Shown here: positions 24,601 to 41,356 of the stretch, piece after piece
Layout of the letters: each line of letters begins with the position of its first letter
Numbering within the stretch: position 1 is the first letter of the stretch
IMG/VR virus record: IMGVR_UViG_3300049489_000677
Span: 1-41,356 of that record
From: a virus
Strand: one strand, 5' to 3'
DNA: 41,356 bases
Notes under the pieces: model-generated
Databases searched by the model: none
What the model was told of the DNA's origin: nothing
What the model saw: the letters and a program-made list of their open reading frames with translations, nothing else
Position numbers and translations under genes: made by a program

Positions 24601-26738
24601 ACAAGGTCTGGTTAGATGAATCAGGCAATATAGATAAAATAACTTCAACTCGGTCCACTTTTCCTAATTGGGTTCCGGAAGAAGGAGGGTTACGAGATAA
24701 GGCACTTTTTAACAAGGTCCTTGATCTACATTCAACTGGTAAGGTTCCTCGAGCAAATGCTACTAGAGAACGAGCCTTACTTGATATAATGGAGGGAGAG
24801 ATGTTAAAGAGACTACCTTTAAACTTACAAGAAGAAGTCGCTCTTTCTTACTTAGCTAAAGAAAACGAAACATTAGCTTCAGTTTATGCTAAAGCTCAGT
24901 CAGCGAGAGGACAACTTATTTTCGAACAAGTTAACGATCCTCGTGTTTTATCTTTACGTAAAAATGGTAAACCAGTACATCTTTTGATTAAAGATGATGA
25001 TTTAGCTGTTGCTCTAAAGGGGGTAAATCACCAACATTTACCTGGGCTATTAAAGTTTATTGGAACTTTTACTAGACTCTATTCTGGTCTTCAGACTCGT
25101 TTTAACCCTGAATTTGCGTTCCCCAATAAGATTCGTGACTTACAGGAAGCGGTAGTATATGCGGGATCTAGGGGTGAGTTAGGTTTTAAATCAGGTATTA
25201 AAGGAGCTTTGGATCAACGGTCTTACAAAGATATTGTTGATTTTATGAGTGGTAAAGATACTGAAGGAGCAAAACTTTATCGTCAAATGCAAGAAGATGG
25301 TGGTACAACCGGAGGAATGGGACTATCCACCCGTGAGCAAATTGAGCTTGATTTGACAGAAATACGAAACATTAATCGTAGTAACCCTCGTCAGGCTGCG
25401 GAAATGTTTATTACAAAGATTGATCAATTTAACACTATTTTTGAAGACTCGACTCGGTTAAGTCTTTATAAACAAGCTCTAAAAAACGGTGTTAGTCGTA
25501 AACGAGCAGCTATGATTGCTAAAGAAGCTTCGGTAAACTTTAATAAATTTGGAACTGGTGGACCGGTTTTAAATGCTTTATTCATGTTTGCTAATGCAAG
25601 TATCCAAGGTACTACAAAAATGTTACGGGCGATGAAAAACCCTAAAGTGGCTGCCACTGTTACAACCGCAGTCGGAACAGCTGTATTAGCTTCTGGAGAA
25701 TGGAATGATCGGATTGATCCGGATTGGAGAGATAAGGTAACAAAGTGGGATAGGATAAATTCAATTACTATGGTTCTACCCTCAACTGATGAATCTGGTT
25801 TTGATTATGTGTCTATCCCAGTAGGCTGGGGTATTAAGCCAGTTAAAGTTTCTATGGATTATTTATATGACTCAATGGTTGGTAAGGGTCAAGGTTGGCA
25901 AGATTCTTTAAATGCAATCGGAGCAGCTACAGTAAATGCTTACAACCCTTTAGGTGGTTCAGATATATTTTCCTCTGTTACCCCGACTATCATGGATATA
26001 CCGTTAGAAGTTGCGCGGAATAAAGCGTGGCATGGTGGGGCAATAATGCCAGACTGGGATAAAAATGCTCCTGATTCTATTCGATATTTTCCATCTTTAC
26101 AAGATAACTCAACAGGGAAAATTGCTGTCCAACTTTCTGAAGGATTATCTGGAGTAGGTATAGAAGTTTCTCCAGCTGCTATTTACTATGCTTACCAAGG
26201 GTATGTTGGAGGGGCAGGAAGGACAGCAACAGATTTTATTAACACAATAATTACTGCGGGAACCGGTGAAATGCCAGAACCTAATGACATACCAGTTTGG
26301 TCAAGATTTGTTCGTCAACGAGACAATGAGGAAATAGGTGAAGCTTCACAAGAATATGAGATGGTAAAGGAAGTTTTGGCTGAACAATCAAAAGATCGTT
26401 TCTATTTAAAACAAGATGCAGAAAATACTTATCGACAACTGTCAAGTATGGATGCCGAAGAAGCGGCTAAAGTGTTTGATGATCTTATTGTGAAAGATCC
26501 TGAGTTGGCTAAAAAGGTTAATGAAATTATGGATGAAGAAGAACTCGGTTTGACCTACACTCAACGACTCATTAAACAACTTGGAGTAGAGAATGGACAA
26601 AGAGCTACTTTTATTGCAAATAAATTAAATAGTTTAAAGACACAAGAAGAGAAGGCCGAATTGTGGGACGAGTATGTGGAAAAGAAGTTAATAACCAATT
26701 CCGTAGCTGAACAACTCGATATATTATTAGAAGATTAA
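21609..26738 (+). CDS. Giant polyvalent / ejected internal virion protein (1709 aa)
   Basis: The largest gene of the window. The N-terminal third is low in recognisable folds; residues about 420-520 (SNKVFLTPDKDGLKAVYTR...INWHSVP) look like an inserted toxin-nuclease-type domain (barnase/EndoU-like group), which I only suspect. The C-terminal part has NKFGTGGPVLNALFMFANAS..., DRINSITMVLP and PVGWGIKPVKV, the pattern of the LPD38-type domain of large polyvalent phage proteins. Such proteins are carried in the head and injected. The antisense tRNA-Arg covers codons about 497-522, and base composition changes just upstream of it. Translation runs unbroken through it. Confidence 0.7.
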   Translation: MYKPTSLQLLEEKKKRDQLVFGVPNTSTLTLKGSMVSPQSTPSRMADLKSKTTPKKTIQEIASQTKQVSGQQSLIPRKPVGDRISASKTQERTQLSKTREIPIVGKILAGTGKGKSGLYAEDTIAGQMERKGVIGFLTEGFIAKTDPSLEQLNNRIYERYAKNREEGLPEDRAIDVAVQDVFNTTASTAKNLADLKEPGVKLTEEEENLAKWINLKENVFAFLDAPIFLGSTKGLSLAGKEAFKQSVGEVRDGIITRLEKEVVDDATLIPGSDPSRRVDILKDEGITEKVDTYLKDLKENPTPSFNQLNEGLQLLKLQGKEVDDFSEKLVDITKQAFDEPVSQLRKVSTESKVNDVSKQELPIDQLIVKASDIKLTTKSQNTLEAFNRSEGQEVITKLDDNTNIELGSYGKNTFARKVDKEDRFPLEEVKSTIESATVVLPASLSDTTYRASNKVFLTPDKDGLKAVYTRTNKGGAEEIINWHSVPKEKVEKYLNDIGVPDRIRTGMTSLEGSQFVRLAYGDNLTLSQQLSRVNMGIKGEIARRPGEALAGGVFGYEENEEGDVEIDPMKAFLGMAAAGFLGLNLKKQQGVSDLRSNQAKNLSSDLVEDTAVRNLPDQPKLQTGIPVEKLGQAEYPLSSQTFSVSLAKEYASVAGKSIDEAVDGLGPTEFSVEKVGKYGEFRKNFEKAWVKTVEVVQDNMIRVRNLIQDPTVKVTDDTNPYLAELLFHGRVGFRLKEAKDKFVAIDKDVVETSKKVGISGEDMTLLVNKFLHARHTPERNAKLGDGASGLTNVEADLITKSLEALPYSSEVKRIADQVQEMNNETLDLLLEAQVIDREAYDAMRDVYKNHVPLNRILKENEDVASSLTGRGFDVRGTGIKRAKGSDLQVADIMANVVVNYEQAIIRSEKNLVDLTLLQFVKDNPQVTLFEEVKPKVIGRKFDRPGKSNLNPEEEAYLSDREIPPVMEQDVSILRDKIDNTWANIYGEMDYATAGKRKDKVWLDESGNIDKITSTRSTFPNWVPEEGGLRDKALFNKVLDLHSTGKVPRANATRERALLDIMEGEMLKRLPLNLQEEVALSYLAKENETLASVYAKAQSARGQLIFEQVNDPRVLSLRKNGKPVHLLIKDDDLAVALKGVNHQHLPGLLKFIGTFTRLYSGLQTRFNPEFAFPNKIRDLQEAVVYAGSRGELGFKSGIKGALDQRSYKDIVDFMSGKDTEGAKLYRQMQEDGGTTGGMGLSTREQIELDLTEIRNINRSNPRQAAEMFITKIDQFNTIFEDSTRLSLYKQALKNGVSRKRAAMIAKEASVNFNKFGTGGPVLNALFMFANASIQGTTKMLRAMKNPKVAATVTTAVGTAVLASGEWNDRIDPDWRDKVTKWDRINSITMVLPSTDESGFDYVSIPVGWGIKPVKVSMDYLYDSMVGKGQGWQDSLNAIGAATVNAYNPLGGSDIFSSVTPTIMDIPLEVARNKAWHGGAIMPDWDKNAPDSIRYFPSLQDNSTGKIAVQLSEGLSGVGIEVSPAAIYYAYQGYVGGAGRTATDFINTIITAGTGEMPEPNDIPVWSRFVRQRDNEEIGEASQEYEMVKEVLAEQSKDRFYLKQDAENTYRQLSSMDAEEAAKVFDDLIVKDPELAKKVNEIMDEEELGLTYTQRLIKQLGVENGQRATFIANKLNSLKTQEEKAELWDEYVEKKLITNSVAEQLDILLED
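23099..23174 (-). tRNA. tRNA-Arg (anticodon UCU) antisense inside the giant virion gene
   Basis: All canonical positions are present on the minus strand: acceptor GTCTCCG with CGGGGAC (one G-U pair), T8 A9, D arm with G18 G19 A21 (one C-A mismatch in the D stem), anticodon stem TGAGC/GCTCG with loop CTTCTAA (anticodon TCT), a 4-base variable loop, T arm ACCGG/CCGGT with loop TTCGAAT, and an encoded A73 and CCA. Total length 76. The opposite strand is translated as part of the 1709-aa protein. It might be a functional phage tRNA, a relic of recombination with a host tRNA, or an attachment-site remnant. Confidence 0.8.
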
Positions 26739-26753
26739 TGTTATAATTATACC
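26738..26753 (+). promoter_or_regulatory. Leaderless promoter of the portal gene
   Basis: TG-T-TATAAT (TATAAT 26742-26747) predicts transcription start at 26754, which is the A of the portal ATG. No SD exists. It begins right after the stop codon of the giant gene. Confidence 0.6.
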
Positions 26754-28688
26754 ATGGAATCAAAGATTACAAGTGAATACATCTTGACACCAGAAGAGAA
26801 TAAAGCTCGTTTGGAGACTTATTCTCGGTTGCAAGAAATGATTGACTTGAAAAATGAAAAGATGCCACACTTCGCTGGTCCAAACGGTTGGCGATCTTTT
26901 AATGAATATATTGACACTTCGGAAAGAATATTAAATGGTTACACTCCTAGTAAATCAGAGCAAGGAAAAGAAGATTGGCAAAGTAATATGATGGATAACA
27001 TCACTCGTGCTAAAATGCGAGCAGTAGCCGCTTCGGTTGGTTTGAAAATGCCGGAGATGAAGTATACAGCAGTTAACAAAAATGGTGTCCGATCAAGGCG
27101 ACGAGCTGAAGTACTATACCAGACAGTAAGGCACTCATATCTTCGTGATAATCCCACAATGCAGTCTTTTCTGGAAGTCTGGAGTATGTTGGCACATGGT
27201 GTAGTTTTTGAATATGAAGGTTATCAAACAGGAGGAAGTAAACAAAAGTATGTAAAGTCTTTTAATTCAAAAACTGGGGATATTGAAATTGATGAGAAAT
27301 ATGTTGAGGCTGATCAACGTCCAATTTCAGTTATTGTTAGTCCTAAAGATTTATATTGGTCGACTTTCCATGTGCGAGATATACAGGATCAACCTATTCT
27401 TATTTGGCTTCAACGGTACTCTCGAAGTGAATTAGAACGAGAATTTTCTAGTTATAAGAATTATCCTTTTATTAAGGATAAAGCTACTGTTTCTAGTCTC
27501 TCAGAACAGACACAAGATACTTACGGATTTAAATACTGGAATAAACGAGTACAGACAAAAGAGTTTGAAGTCTTGCGTAAGTATTCTAAAGAGGATAATG
27601 CTTATGAAATTTGGATTAACGGTACACCAATGTTACGTGTGCCTCTATTATGGAGTCATCAAGGTAAGCCTTGGTATCCTTGGACTAAAACAATTGGAGA
27701 ACCGTTTGCTAATGCTATGAATTTCTTTGTTGGTATTTCTTTCCCTGCTCTCTTAGAGCCATATCAAGAAAGTCGAACAACAATTGTTAACACAATGACG
27801 GATATTCTTTACCGGTCTTTGGTTCCACCGATGCTTGTTGGTCTTGGCAATAAAGAGTTATTAGAAGTGGAATCGGAACTAGTTGATAGTGATGATCGTA
27901 TTTATGTACCGGATGTTAACCAGGTTACACCGATGCCTGTTCGCGGAGTACAACAAGGTGATATTGCTATGCTTGGTATTATGGATCAAGCGATTGAACG
28001 ATTGTCGATTGATGCTTCACAACAAGGTATTGCTACTCCTGATGTCACAGCAAGGGCAACAATAATTGCTGACGAAAGAGCTAGACAACTTAAAGGAGTC
28101 TTGTTCTTGTTCCTGGAAGATTTATGGTTGCAAAAGACACGTTTACGTAATATCACTATTCTTACTCATTACTTAAAAGATAAAGCAAGACGAACAGCGT
28201 TTAAAGATCAAACTATTTCAATTGATGATGTTAAGTTTTCTGATAACACTTACGGAGTATTGGACATTCATGTGGCATCATCGGCCAGTAAGCAACTATC
28301 TTTGGAAGAAATAACGGCCAGGGAAGAAGCAGCTAAGACTGAAGGAATTAATTACAAGTTAATTTCTGTCACAAAAGATTATCTTGATGGTTGGGAGTAT
28401 GATACTTTAATCATTCCTGAATCGTTATTCAATAATGATCGTCTTCGACAACAATCATTACTGGAAGAGAAGCATCAATGGCTTACTACTTATTACCCAG
28501 AGTACTTTGTGGAGAATAAAGATCGTTATCTTGAAGAGGTTTTGGGTATGTATGGAGAAAGTATTAGCGATATAAACAAACCTAAACCAGTACCACCTGA
28601 AGCTAAAAATCCTGATTTGGCAGCTTTGTTGGGTGGGGGTGAAGAATCATCTGAACAACCTCCTGAGCAGTTACCAGTAATAACATAA
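26754..28688 (+). CDS. Portal protein (644 aa)
   Basis: The podovirus portal pattern is visible: an N-terminal helical part (SRLQEMIDLKNEKM, then NMMDNITRAKMRAVAASVG), wing and stem segments (SVIVSPKDLYWSTF), the loop and crown region with TDILYRSLVPPMLVG (around residue 350) and the helix RATIIADERARQLKGVLFLFLEDLW. The C-terminus is a Pro/Glu-rich barrel tail. Twelve copies would form the DNA channel. It lies about 14 kb after the capsid gene, instead of next to terL as usual. It has its own leaderless promoter. Confidence 0.8.
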   Translation: MESKITSEYILTPEENKARLETYSRLQEMIDLKNEKMPHFAGPNGWRSFNEYIDTSERILNGYTPSKSEQGKEDWQSNMMDNITRAKMRAVAASVGLKMPEMKYTAVNKNGVRSRRRAEVLYQTVRHSYLRDNPTMQSFLEVWSMLAHGVVFEYEGYQTGGSKQKYVKSFNSKTGDIEIDEKYVEADQRPISVIVSPKDLYWSTFHVRDIQDQPILIWLQRYSRSELEREFSSYKNYPFIKDKATVSSLSEQTQDTYGFKYWNKRVQTKEFEVLRKYSKEDNAYEIWINGTPMLRVPLLWSHQGKPWYPWTKTIGEPFANAMNFFVGISFPALLEPYQESRTTIVNTMTDILYRSLVPPMLVGLGNKELLEVESELVDSDDRIYVPDVNQVTPMPVRGVQQGDIAMLGIMDQAIERLSIDASQQGIATPDVTARATIIADERARQLKGVLFLFLEDLWLQKTRLRNITILTHYLKDKARRTAFKDQTISIDDVKFSDNTYGVLDIHVASSASKQLSLEEITAREEAAKTEGINYKLISVTKDYLDGWEYDTLIIPESLFNNDRLRQQSLLEEKHQWLTTYYPEYFVENKDRYLEEVLGMYGESISDINKPKPVPPEAKNPDLAALLGGGEESSEQPPEQLPVIT

Positions 28689-39200: not shown

Positions 39201-40526
39201 TTACAATCCTCCCTTAATAATATCCTTATAAACTGTATCACTATTGTACCACTCACCCGCTGACCAGTAGAATGACTTTACTACCTCATTGTTAGACTTT
39301 AAGCCGTTAACAAATGGTTTCATGTTGTCTACCCAGTTTTGCTTTGGTGGTACGCCAAACTCAGTAATAGCGATCTTCACTCCATGCTTCTTCGCCCACG
39401 CTACTACATAGTTTAACCTTTCGACGTGTAGTTCGGCACTTTCATTCGGGTCATTTGGGTGGCTAAATCCAGTGTTACCCTTGTTAAAGTAATTGTGGAA
39501 GACGTAGACGTAGCGATCACCCTTAAATGGTGGAACCATATCTTTCTTCCCGTCGGCAAAGTCGTCCATACTAGACCAATTAAACATCGGGATAGCGATA
39601 GTCTTATTCCAACCAGTAGCTTCTATGGCTGGTACTACCTCTTTAACCCAATTCCAGTAGTTGTCATAGCTGATATTGCCACTGTGAGGCTCGTTATCTA
39701 TCTCCATCGCTTCTACTGTGCTGTCATTCTTAAACAAGTTAGCTAACTCTACCCGACTAGCCGTGTTTGGACTCCTTCCGTAATCATGAAAGTCTAACCA
39801 GACCTTACCATTTACCGCCTTAGCATGGTTAACATTATCAACGATATACTGCGTATACGCCCCTCCTAGACGTTTAGTGATGAATGGTACTCTAAAGGTC
39901 TTAAATCCAGCGTTAGCGAGTCTCTGGTACTCTCCTAGGCCGTTTGACTTGTAGTTTTGGTTATTGGCCCCTGGGATTGTCCCTTCGGCAAACTCTAACC
40001 CTGCTACGGCTATCCCAATATCTGAAGAGATAGGTTGAGTAGGGGTAATTGGTGGCTTAGGTGGTGTTGTCGTAGCCACGGGCGTTGTAGTCGCTACTGG
40101 CTTAGGCGGGGTAACAACTGGTGTAGTAGTAGCTACGGGGGTAGTGGTAGCAACGGGTGGAGTGACCACGGGTGGTGTAACTACTACTGGTGTTGGCTCA
40201 TCTTCTTCCTCCTCTACGATCTTAGGCTTATTATTACTCTTCTTTTTCTTCTTCTTTTTAACTTCTTCCTTCTTCTCTGGCTTTGGTGTCCAGTAAGCGA
40301 CTGAGTTACTGTTATAAACGGTTTTTGGTACGGACGCTGTTACCTTTGTAACTGTCTTTTCCTCAGTAGTTGTTGCGGTACTAGTAACAACCTCAGTAGT
40401 CGTCGTAGCGACTTGGGTTACTTCTGGTACAGGCACAACTACCATTAAGTCGGTCGTGGCTAGTTTATAAAACGGTATTAGACAAATGATAAAGAACAAC
40501 AACGAAAGAACTTTTACTATTTTCAT
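39201..40526 (-). CDS. Membrane-anchored GH5-type glycoside hydrolase (cellulase-like, 441 aa)
   Basis: Residues 5-24 form a signal anchor. A Lys-rich then Glu-rich part and a Pro/Thr linker (about 110-165, VATTTPVATTTP-like repeats) lead to a TIM-barrel domain (about 170-441). Catalytic candidates are E279 in EIDNEPH (acid/base, the GH-A 'NEP') and E389 in AITEFGVP (nucleophile); VWLDFHDYG, HNYFN and FYWSAGEW are further GH5 barrel motifs. It should cut beta-glycans at the cell surface. GH5 enzymes are rare in phages and may have come from a bacterium or the host. Its ATG overlaps the TGA of the 26-aa peptide. Confidence 0.85.
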   Translation of the reverse strand: MKIVKVLSLLFFIICLIPFYKLATTDLMVVVPVPEVTQVATTTTEVVTSTATTTEEKTVTKVTASVPKTVYNSNSVAYWTPKPEKKEEVKKKKKKKSNNKPKIVEEEEDEPTPVVVTPPVVTPPVATTTPVATTTPVVTPPKPVATTTPVATTTPPKPPITPTQPISSDIGIAVAGLEFAEGTIPGANNQNYKSNGLGEYQRLANAGFKTFRVPFITKRLGGAYTQYIVDNVNHAKAVNGKVWLDFHDYGRSPNTASRVELANLFKNDSTVEAMEIDNEPHSGNISYDNYWNWVKEVVPAIEATGWNKTIAIPMFNWSSMDDFADGKKDMVPPFKGDRYVYVFHNYFNKGNTGFSHPNDPNESAELHVERLNYVVAWAKKHGVKIAITEFGVPPKQNWVDNMKPFVNGLKSNNEVVKSFYWSAGEWYNSDTVYKDIIKGGL

Positions 40527-40603
40527 ATAAATATGATGGTGATAACCACGAAGGCTATCAAAAACTTAATTATTAACTTCAAATCTTCTCTTTTTTCCTT
40601 CAA
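40523..40603 (-). CDS. TM micropeptide (26 aa) with coupled start and stop
   Basis: The frame starts at TTG 40603, overlapping the TGA of the Cys-triplet gene by four bases (TTGA), and its TGA overlaps the cellulase ATG (ATGA). It encodes KEKREDLKL followed by an aliphatic TM helix. The same DLKL-TM pattern (KKEDLKLVV...) ends the 51-aa zinc-ribbon protein at 40953, so it looks like a partial duplicate. The non-ATG start lowers confidence. Confidence 0.4.
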   Translation of the reverse strand: MKEKREDLKLIIKFLIAFVVITIIFI

Positions 40604-40956
40604 TTTCGGTAGTATCCGCCAAGAAATGCGTGATATGCTGGCCAGAGATCATCATTGCTTTTTTTATCATTTTTATTATGGGAATCATCACAACCAATGC
40701 AATTGTGGCAATTACTACAACTATTGCAACCATGGCAAAAATGGCAATTATGACAATCAATACAACTATGGCAGTCATAACAACAATAGCAACCCCAAGA
40801 ATAGCTACAGTCGCTACAATTCCAACAGGCTTTATTGGTCTTGTTCATTTCCTCGTATGTCGTATAATCTTGTGCAAACGACTCACTTACCCCATTCTCT
40901 TTTTTGTCTTCCCTTTTCAGGAAATCTGAATAGGTTTTATAGATTTTTGTTTTCAT
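40600..40956 (-). CDS. Cys-x-x triplet-repeat protein (118 aa)
   Basis: Residues 44-89 have Cys at every third position, 44, 47, 50, then 56 through 89, with only position 53 (Ser) breaking the series, plus C58: 16 cysteines in 46 residues. The intervening residues are His, Asn, Asp, Ser and Tyr. The rest is an acidic/polar N-terminus and a Lys/Asp and aromatic C-terminus. A regular Cys ladder could bind several metals or form a disulfide-linked coil. No named family is recognised. The start (ATG 40956) is fixed by ATGA overlap with the upstream zinc-ribbon/TM gene. Confidence 0.75.
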   Translation of the reverse strand: MKTKIYKTYSDFLKREDKKENGVSESFAQDYTTYEEMNKTNKACWNCSDCSYSWGCYCCYDCHSCIDCHNCHFCHGCNSCSNCHNCIGCDDSHNKNDKKSNDDLWPAYHAFLGGYYRN

Positions 40957-41113: not shown

Positions 41114-41308
41114 TTAATTACCTCTAAAGTACCACCTCTTAACTGGGTTACTAAAGGAAAGTAACGGCCAAATCAGAGTTAGTATCAAGACATCCACAAA
41201 CCTCATTTCTATTCCTGGATCAATACAACTATAGAGCCAAAAGATAAAGAAGAACAGTCCACCGAGAAGCAAGTAAATTAAGAATCCATAAATTAAGATA
41301 CATTCCAT
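41114..41308 (-). CDS. Two-TM membrane protein (64 aa)
   Basis: Two hydrophobic helices (about 4-27, ILIYGFLIYLLLGGLFFFIF; and 40-53, VLILTLIWPLLSF) with a short loop CIDPGIEMR and a basic C-terminus (NPVKRWYFRGN). It is five bases before the zinc-ribbon/TM gene, making it the first gene in the accessory operon right of the junction. Envelope role likely. No family recognised. Confidence 0.55.
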   Translation of the reverse strand: MECILIYGFLIYLLLGGLFFFIFWLYSCIDPGIEMRFVDVLILTLIWPLLSFSNPVKRWYFRGN

Positions 41309-41323
41309 ATAAGTTAGACATTG

Positions 41324-41356
41324 TTAATTACCCATACCCATCCCCATCCCCATCCC
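41324..41356 (-). CDS. Partial small ORF entering from the right edge (Gly-Met tail, 3' part)
   Basis: Read from 41356, codons alternate GGG/GGT and ATG, then AAT and a TAA at 41324-41326, in frame with the ORF that leaves at base 1. If the ends are joined the product is a 29-residue peptide with a (Gly-Met) tail. A stop here and the next start at 41308 fit operon spacing. Confidence 0.35.
   Translation of the reverse strand, partial: GMGMGMGMGN
41331..41356 (-). repeat. GGGATG tandem repeat at the window end, G-quadruplex-prone
   Basis: The minus strand has five G3-4 runs spaced by AT or TAT within 26 bases; another GGGGATGG lies at the left edge (about 2-10). A quadruplex can form on that strand. 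Such a repeat also breaks assemblies, which may explain why the window begins and ends here. Confidence 0.7.

Follow-up and report, generated by a model that had tools for sequence, protein, structure and literature searches.

A phage gene encodes a protein, here called P0001, in which a conserved N-terminal head is followed by a ladder of cysteines placed at every third residue. Our favoured reading, to which we assign a probability of roughly 70%, is that the ladder forms a tripeptide-repeat β-solenoid with a cysteine core, and that the resulting polar rod, whose length varies among relatives, probably serves as a binding scaffold or decoy in the cytosol. Evidence for this reading comes from the conservation of the gene, the substitutions observed within the ladders, the exchange of ladders with known solenoids among related phage proteins, and structure prediction.

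A cysteine ladder protein encoded by a phage genome

The window examined in this study, 41,356 bases long, is a complete virus record of IMG/VR, with recognizable genes for terminase, head protein and primase. The features of the ladder gene and its upstream neighbour are listed in Table 1.

Table 1. Features of the Cys-x-x (CXX) ladder gene and the adjoining open reading frame (ORF) in the window.
Feature	Position	Strand	Remarks
CXX-ladder protein P0001, coding sequence	40600..40956	-	118 aa plus stop; relatives in the same frame
N-terminal head ('head A'), residues 1-43 (MKTKIYKTYSDFLKREDKKENGVSESFAQDYTTYEEMNKTNKA)	40828..40956	-	Conserved; supported by alignments and flank statistics
Cys-x-x ladder, residues 44-89	40690..40827	-	15 of 16 in-phase positions are Cys; AlphaFold2 predicts one isolated bridge per triplet
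C-terminal tail, residues 90-118	40603..40689	-	Low AlphaFold2 confidence; no counterpart among the tail domains of relatives
Upstream ORF, 51 aa, two CxxC pairs (zinc-ribbon-like) and one transmembrane (TM) segment	40953..41108	-	Overlaps the ladder gene; not a conserved neighbour

P0001 carries 16 cysteines, at residues 44, 47, 50, 56, 58, 59, 62, 65, 68, 71, 74, 77, 80, 83, 86 and 89. The initial annotation had described a cysteine at every third residue over 46 residues with a single gap, and this description is confirmed: the only in-phase gap between C44 and C89 is Ser53, and there is one additional off-phase cysteine, C58, that had gone unmentioned. In 20,000 shuffles of the full-length protein the highest comparable count was 10, against the 15 observed, and shuffling of the 46-residue ladder alone, with its 16 cysteines, gave a maximum of 11. 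Both TGT and TGC are used as cysteine codons. Histidine occupies five x1 positions, a feature peculiar to the window copy, as x residues in the family are mostly Ser, Asp, Gly, Arg or Asn. Two asparagines of head A, N38 and N41, fall at in-phase positions -6 and -3.

The start codon of the ladder gene (40956-40954) overlaps the TGA stop of the upstream ORF by four bases (ATGA), which makes the previously proposed translational coupling of the two genes plausible. The further proposal of a membrane-linked metal-handling pair finds no backing in the wider family, because no recurrent neighbour was found among 143 genes flanking the homologues, and none of these genes resembles the zinc-ribbon gene of the window. 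Elsewhere in this region, the gene downstream of the ladder in the same direction (39201-40526, minus strand) encodes a protein that combines a cellulase (GH5) domain (PF00150, E 4e-21) with a long Thr/Pro linker, an unusual phage cargo. A 64-residue membrane protein with weak likeness to the GhoT/OrtT toxins (E 0.01, below the cut-off) is encoded at 41114-41308 on the minus strand, and a CCCATC-type short tandem repeat at 41330-41356 closes the record.

Homologues retain the reading frame, head and cysteine spacing

A head motif, MKTKIYKTYSDFLKRED..NGVS..FA..NKTNKACWNC, is common to P0001 and 34 loci in IMG/VR, and recurs in two sequenced phages and in five metagenome-assembled genomes (MAGs). 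A scan of IMG/VR with the single sequence yielded no direct homologues, and the 34 loci were recovered with a three-sequence alignment. The two sequenced phages are Vibrio phage 1.238.A/B and Flavobacterium phage FL-1. Among 84,980 species genomes, head A was matched in five, all of them MAG contigs, and a search of plasmids revealed no homologue of the head. We define the head-A ladder family by the pattern IFKxYxxFxxREDKxxNGVSxxFA...NxTNxxCWNC followed by a Cys ladder, to which P0001 conforms. Across the IMG/VR loci, phages and MAG contigs, the homologues preserve frame, head and cysteine spacing. To judge by this conservation of the head across loci, the P0001 ORF is a real gene.

In principle the ORF could be an artefact, a frame read through some other coding sequence or through low-complexity DNA, and many of the other matches to the DNA pattern used in our searches resemble alternative frames of collagen-like or repeat genes. 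However, dozens of loci conserve the head in this same frame, and the core positions of the ladder bear signs of selection that are absent from unassigned frames (see below). Conservation thus refutes this explanation, to which we give practically no chance.

The family as a whole appears in databases without a name. The profile phrog_15341 matches P0001 (E 3.7e-7, residues 42-97), with a score that partly reflects cysteine composition, and it matches the scanned ladder relatives with E-values down to 1e-28; this entry differs from a described family in being a bare cluster that has no name, structure or function. A Pfam search of the ladder protein gave no match above the cut-off, NCBIfam gave only a sub-threshold match to a His-Xaa-Ser repeat protein, and our literature search found no description of CXX ladders in phages. 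The earlier statement that no named family has a triplet cysteine ladder therefore holds for these three sources, but must be qualified: by its profile match P0001 is a member of an unnamed phage family, phrog_15341, that is sometimes annotated as 'insect antifreeze protein'. That label stands in GenBank on the Vibrio phage gene NVP1238B_69 (InterPro IPR016133). For Flavobacterium phage FL-1, GenBank annotates another frame (26567-26911), and the frame with the conserved head spans the ladder (L002, 3001-3705).

The nearest terminase relatives of the window phage, some of which are fragmentary records, carry no ladder proteins. Head A occurs in a MAG contig assigned to Peregrinibacteria, and a terminase match with E<=1e-30 was found in one of 287 genomes of that phylum (34% identity), which together are insufficient to name a host.

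Substitutions in the ladders resemble those of a protein core

To examine the ladders more broadly, we collected sequences with a DNA pattern for twelve in-phase cysteines and with searches based on conserved ends. Ladders were found in phage sequences behind several heads, including head A, head B (W.DENNNSW..EEA...SPTLTNC) and others, and statistics were compiled for 154 distinct ladders.

In-phase positions of these ladders hold 4,092 cysteines and 60 other residues (S30 L13 I5 G4 F3 M2 A2 T1). Not one of the 60 replacements is D, E, K, R, H, N or Q, whereas these residues make up 3,201 of 7,996 (40%) at the x positions (p about 1e-13); conversely, L, I, V, M or F account for 23 of the 60 but for just 436 of the 7,996 (p about 5e-14). 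Arg, Tyr and Trp, which are one-step mutants of Cys, are also missing (0/60), compared with 111 of 305 replacements in unassigned frames that contain Cys ladders (p about 6e-11). The 60 changes come from 25 ladders, many of them from two loci, and so are not all independent, but their direction is uniform.

The phase itself persists where a cysteine is missing. In such places the gap to the next cysteine measures 6, 9 or 12 residues in 49 cases and 5 residues in one, and gaps of 4, 7, 8, 10 or 11 residues do not occur. Beyond the last cysteine, the fraction of Leu, Ile, Val or Met is 0.54, 0.21, 0.27 and 0.42 at positions +3, +6, +9 and +12, against 0.02-0.16 out of phase, and ahead of the first cysteine Asn or Leu/Ser occurs at positions -3 and -6. 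Both the triplet phase and the core-like character of the substitutions are thereby shown at the level of sequence. Taken together with the continuation of the phase into the flanks, they indicate that one residue of each triplet would point inward and two outward.

Autocorrelation of the x residues revealed no 12-residue (four-triplet) period. Among lost core cysteines a lag of 4 is found 10 times against 6.0 expected, a marginal excess (p 0.035, uncorrected, with 12 lags tested), and a lag of 2 is depleted. In uninterrupted ladders the number of cysteines is even in 31 of 67 cases, and its distribution modulo 4 is flat.

Ladders vary in length and share tail domains with known solenoids

The distinct ladders have between 6 and 58 triplets. 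One 41-kb phage record (G004; L163/L164, IMGVR_UViG_3300037172_000055) contains at least nine ladder paralogues at dispersed sites, in which the head and the C-terminal end (RPELDINDRKLEPDL) are near-constant and the ladders differ. In two near-identical gene pairs (L005/L016 and L007/L022), the codons of head and tail are identical and the ladders differ by whole-triplet insertions or deletions; ladder indels comprise 1, 3, 4 or 6 triplets. In a further locus, L269, head B is apparently joined to its tail with only one cysteine. These last three sets of length differences can stem from metagenome assembly of repeats. Many IMG/VR contigs (L177-L231, many ends) terminate inside or beside ladders, which suggests that short-read assembly breaks there and that ladder genes are undercounted.

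Two tail domains link the ladders to established solenoids. Tail domain 1 (WHTCETTHCRAGW, phrog_31265) was found on 79 distinct CXX N-termini and on 54 distinct pentapeptide ones, counted in loci from two differently seeded searches; these counts follow the seeds rather than natural frequencies. Pfam PF00805 is matched on one such pentapeptide protein (P0002), and a protein of this kind is encoded by a Bordetella phage-like plasmid. Tail domain 1 gave no significant fold match against the Protein Data Bank (PDB). Tail domain 2 (IGSRN..CGCF, phrog_20532) likewise follows CXX ladders, and in three of the four cultured phages examined (Bacillus, Chryseobacterium and Ruminococcus) it is found on hexapeptide/YdcK solenoids; the Paenibacillus phage protein has this tail but no Pfam repeat match. 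By these sequence comparisons, interchange of CXX ladders with known solenoids is shown within the family. P0001 itself carries neither tail, and the argument therefore applies to it through its homologues, with membership established by the head.

Pentapeptide-repeat proteins (PF00805) share with the ladders a short equivalent unit, a solenoid of variable length and tail domain 1, which is present in ladder relatives but not in P0001. However, their unit is five residues with a Leu/Ala core, compared with three residues and a Cys core in the ladder, and a search for their A(D/N)LXX units in the ladder gave no Pfam match. Hexapeptide/YdcK β-solenoid phage proteins (PF00132, PF18836; phrog_7964) resemble the ladder relatives in placing tail domain 2 after the solenoid, but have a unit of six or more residues and an aliphatic core.

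A predicted β-solenoid and its alternatives

Structure prediction, proposed in the initial annotation, was carried out on P0001 with AlphaFold2 and 26 sequences. The best model has a bridge at every third residue, with pLDDT values of roughly 73-81 across most of the ladder and a mean of 67.7; this one model, of moderate confidence, supports a solenoid form of the ladder. Scores of the remaining four models are 50-59, and in the model of a relative (L011) the ladder falls below 50. Among 17 candidate PDB chains compared with the P0001 model, Z reached 2 or more in just two, 1EZG and 1L1I, which are both structures of Tenebrio antifreeze protein; these similarities are weak (1EZG: Z 3.5, rmsd 3.2, 62 residues aligned; 1L1I: Z 2.9), and Foldseek gave no significant match in the PDB, only a poor one. 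By analogy with the Tenebrio protein, a 12-residue coil of four triplets is likeliest, an exact form that we infer, since the Z values are low, the remaining models are worse and the L011 ladder is not confidently modelled. In such a very narrow coil the cysteine of each Cys-x-x triplet would point inward as the default core residue and both x residues would face solvent (in-out-out). Because all triplets would be equivalent, the rod could lengthen or shorten by single triplets, and it would fill the slot held in other phage proteins by pentapeptide- and hexapeptide-repeat solenoids. Among BFVD models, fold matches to the ladder include H6SUK4 from Campylobacter virus IBB35 ('CaiB/BaiF family') and A0A5B8IEK9 from a Mimiviridae genome ('TNFR-Cys'), each of which may be a ladder protein under a wrong name.

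A Cys face could also be displayed without any β-solenoid by a helix of three residues per turn (3-10 or polyproline II), single or in a bundle like that of snow flea antifreeze protein. The triplets do act as independent units with no period above the triplet, and the indel sizes would suit such a helix. However, pentapeptide solenoids are likewise built of equivalent units, so the lack of a coil period does not count against a solenoid. The partners swapped into the same architecture are β-solenoids, and the predicted bridge at each triplet also speaks for that fold. We therefore consider a three-per-turn helix unlikely.

An antifreeze function is very improbable, despite the GenBank record that names it, its IPR016133 annotation and a profile match of the ladder to 1EZG (E 0.006-0.03) that is the best PDB sequence match but is weak and may be driven by composition. 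In the Tenebrio protein, side chains alternate out-in-out-out-in, with C2, S5, C8 and A11 of the 12-residue coil inside (PMC8038014). Insect cysteine-rich antifreeze proteins of Tenebrio and Dendroides (1EZG, IPR016133) would share with the ladder, in the form proposed here, a narrow right-handed β-helix, one inward residue per triplet and core cysteines, and the sequence statistics of the ladders do reveal an inward residue at every third position. Their fixed 12-residue repeat, however, has a C-S-C-A core and a TCT ice-binding face, whereas P0001 has all-Cys core positions and an N-terminal head, and lacks a TCT array and, by eye, a signal peptide. The TCTxSxNCxxAx repeat with its Thr-x-Thr array, and a four-triplet period among the x residues, are absent from the ladders, in which Thr occupies 3% of x1 and 0.1% of x2 positions.

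Metal binding, by contrast with the core-forming role favoured here, would have the cysteines chelate Zn, Cu or Fe-S, either for storage or as a chain of metal sites. The extreme density of cysteines, the adjoining zinc-ribbon ORF and the x1 histidines of the window copy are in keeping with this proposal, and four cysteines per putative 12-residue coil could make a Cys4 site. However, lost core cysteines give way to Leu, Ile, Phe, Ser or Gly and in none of the 60 cases to His, Asp or Glu, cysteine numbers in uninterrupted ladders favour neither even values nor multiples of four, and no metal-handling neighbour recurs. These three observations argue against obligatory metal quartets, and make the metal-storage or multi-zinc reading of the initial annotation quite unlikely. 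Metallothioneins, which are also Cys-rich, differ from the ladders, whose core replacements are non-ligating; to our knowledge they have no fixed triplet phase.

The same three observations also argue against obligatory full disulfide pairing. Of the earlier suggestion of a stiff disulfide-linked rod, it is the rod that agrees with the substitution pattern, the continuation of the phase, the swapping of solenoids and the predicted model. The reducing cytosol is the probable site of P0001 synthesis, given that no signal peptide is evident by eye. Recombinant beetle antifreeze protein became active only after dialysis, which its authors attributed to oxidation of its 18 cysteines (PMC8038014). 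It is conceivable, although we hold it doubtful, that CXX ladders form a distinct β-solenoid class with the shortest unit (three residues) and an all-Cys core, that phages can swap this rod of free length with pentapeptide and hexapeptide rods, and that its folding or stiffness is switched by redox state: soft or thiol-cored in the reducing cytosol and disulfide-locked on lysis or oxidation.

Possible roles and implications

Within the favoured β-solenoid reading, the rod would engage a partner from the host or the phage within the host cytosol, either as a binding scaffold or as a decoy. This biological role is the weakest-supported part of our reading, a guess that we adopt as the most economical one because the gene stands alone with no conserved partner, the ladder varies rapidly in length, and the scaffold is replaceable by pentapeptide or hexapeptide rods. 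Some pentapeptide proteins mimic DNA. Of 43 head-A ORFs (near-duplicates counted), 36 have a ladder with a net negative charge, and by analogy such ladders would allow DNA mimicry.

The ladder family spans phages of very different hosts, and in public records its members are misnamed as antifreeze proteins or annotated in the wrong frame. The tail domains shared among several types of solenoid offer a handle on the binding partners of these phage proteins. If one residue in three, nearly always cysteine, suffices for a rod, then the ladders would embody a simple design principle, open to direct structural tests.
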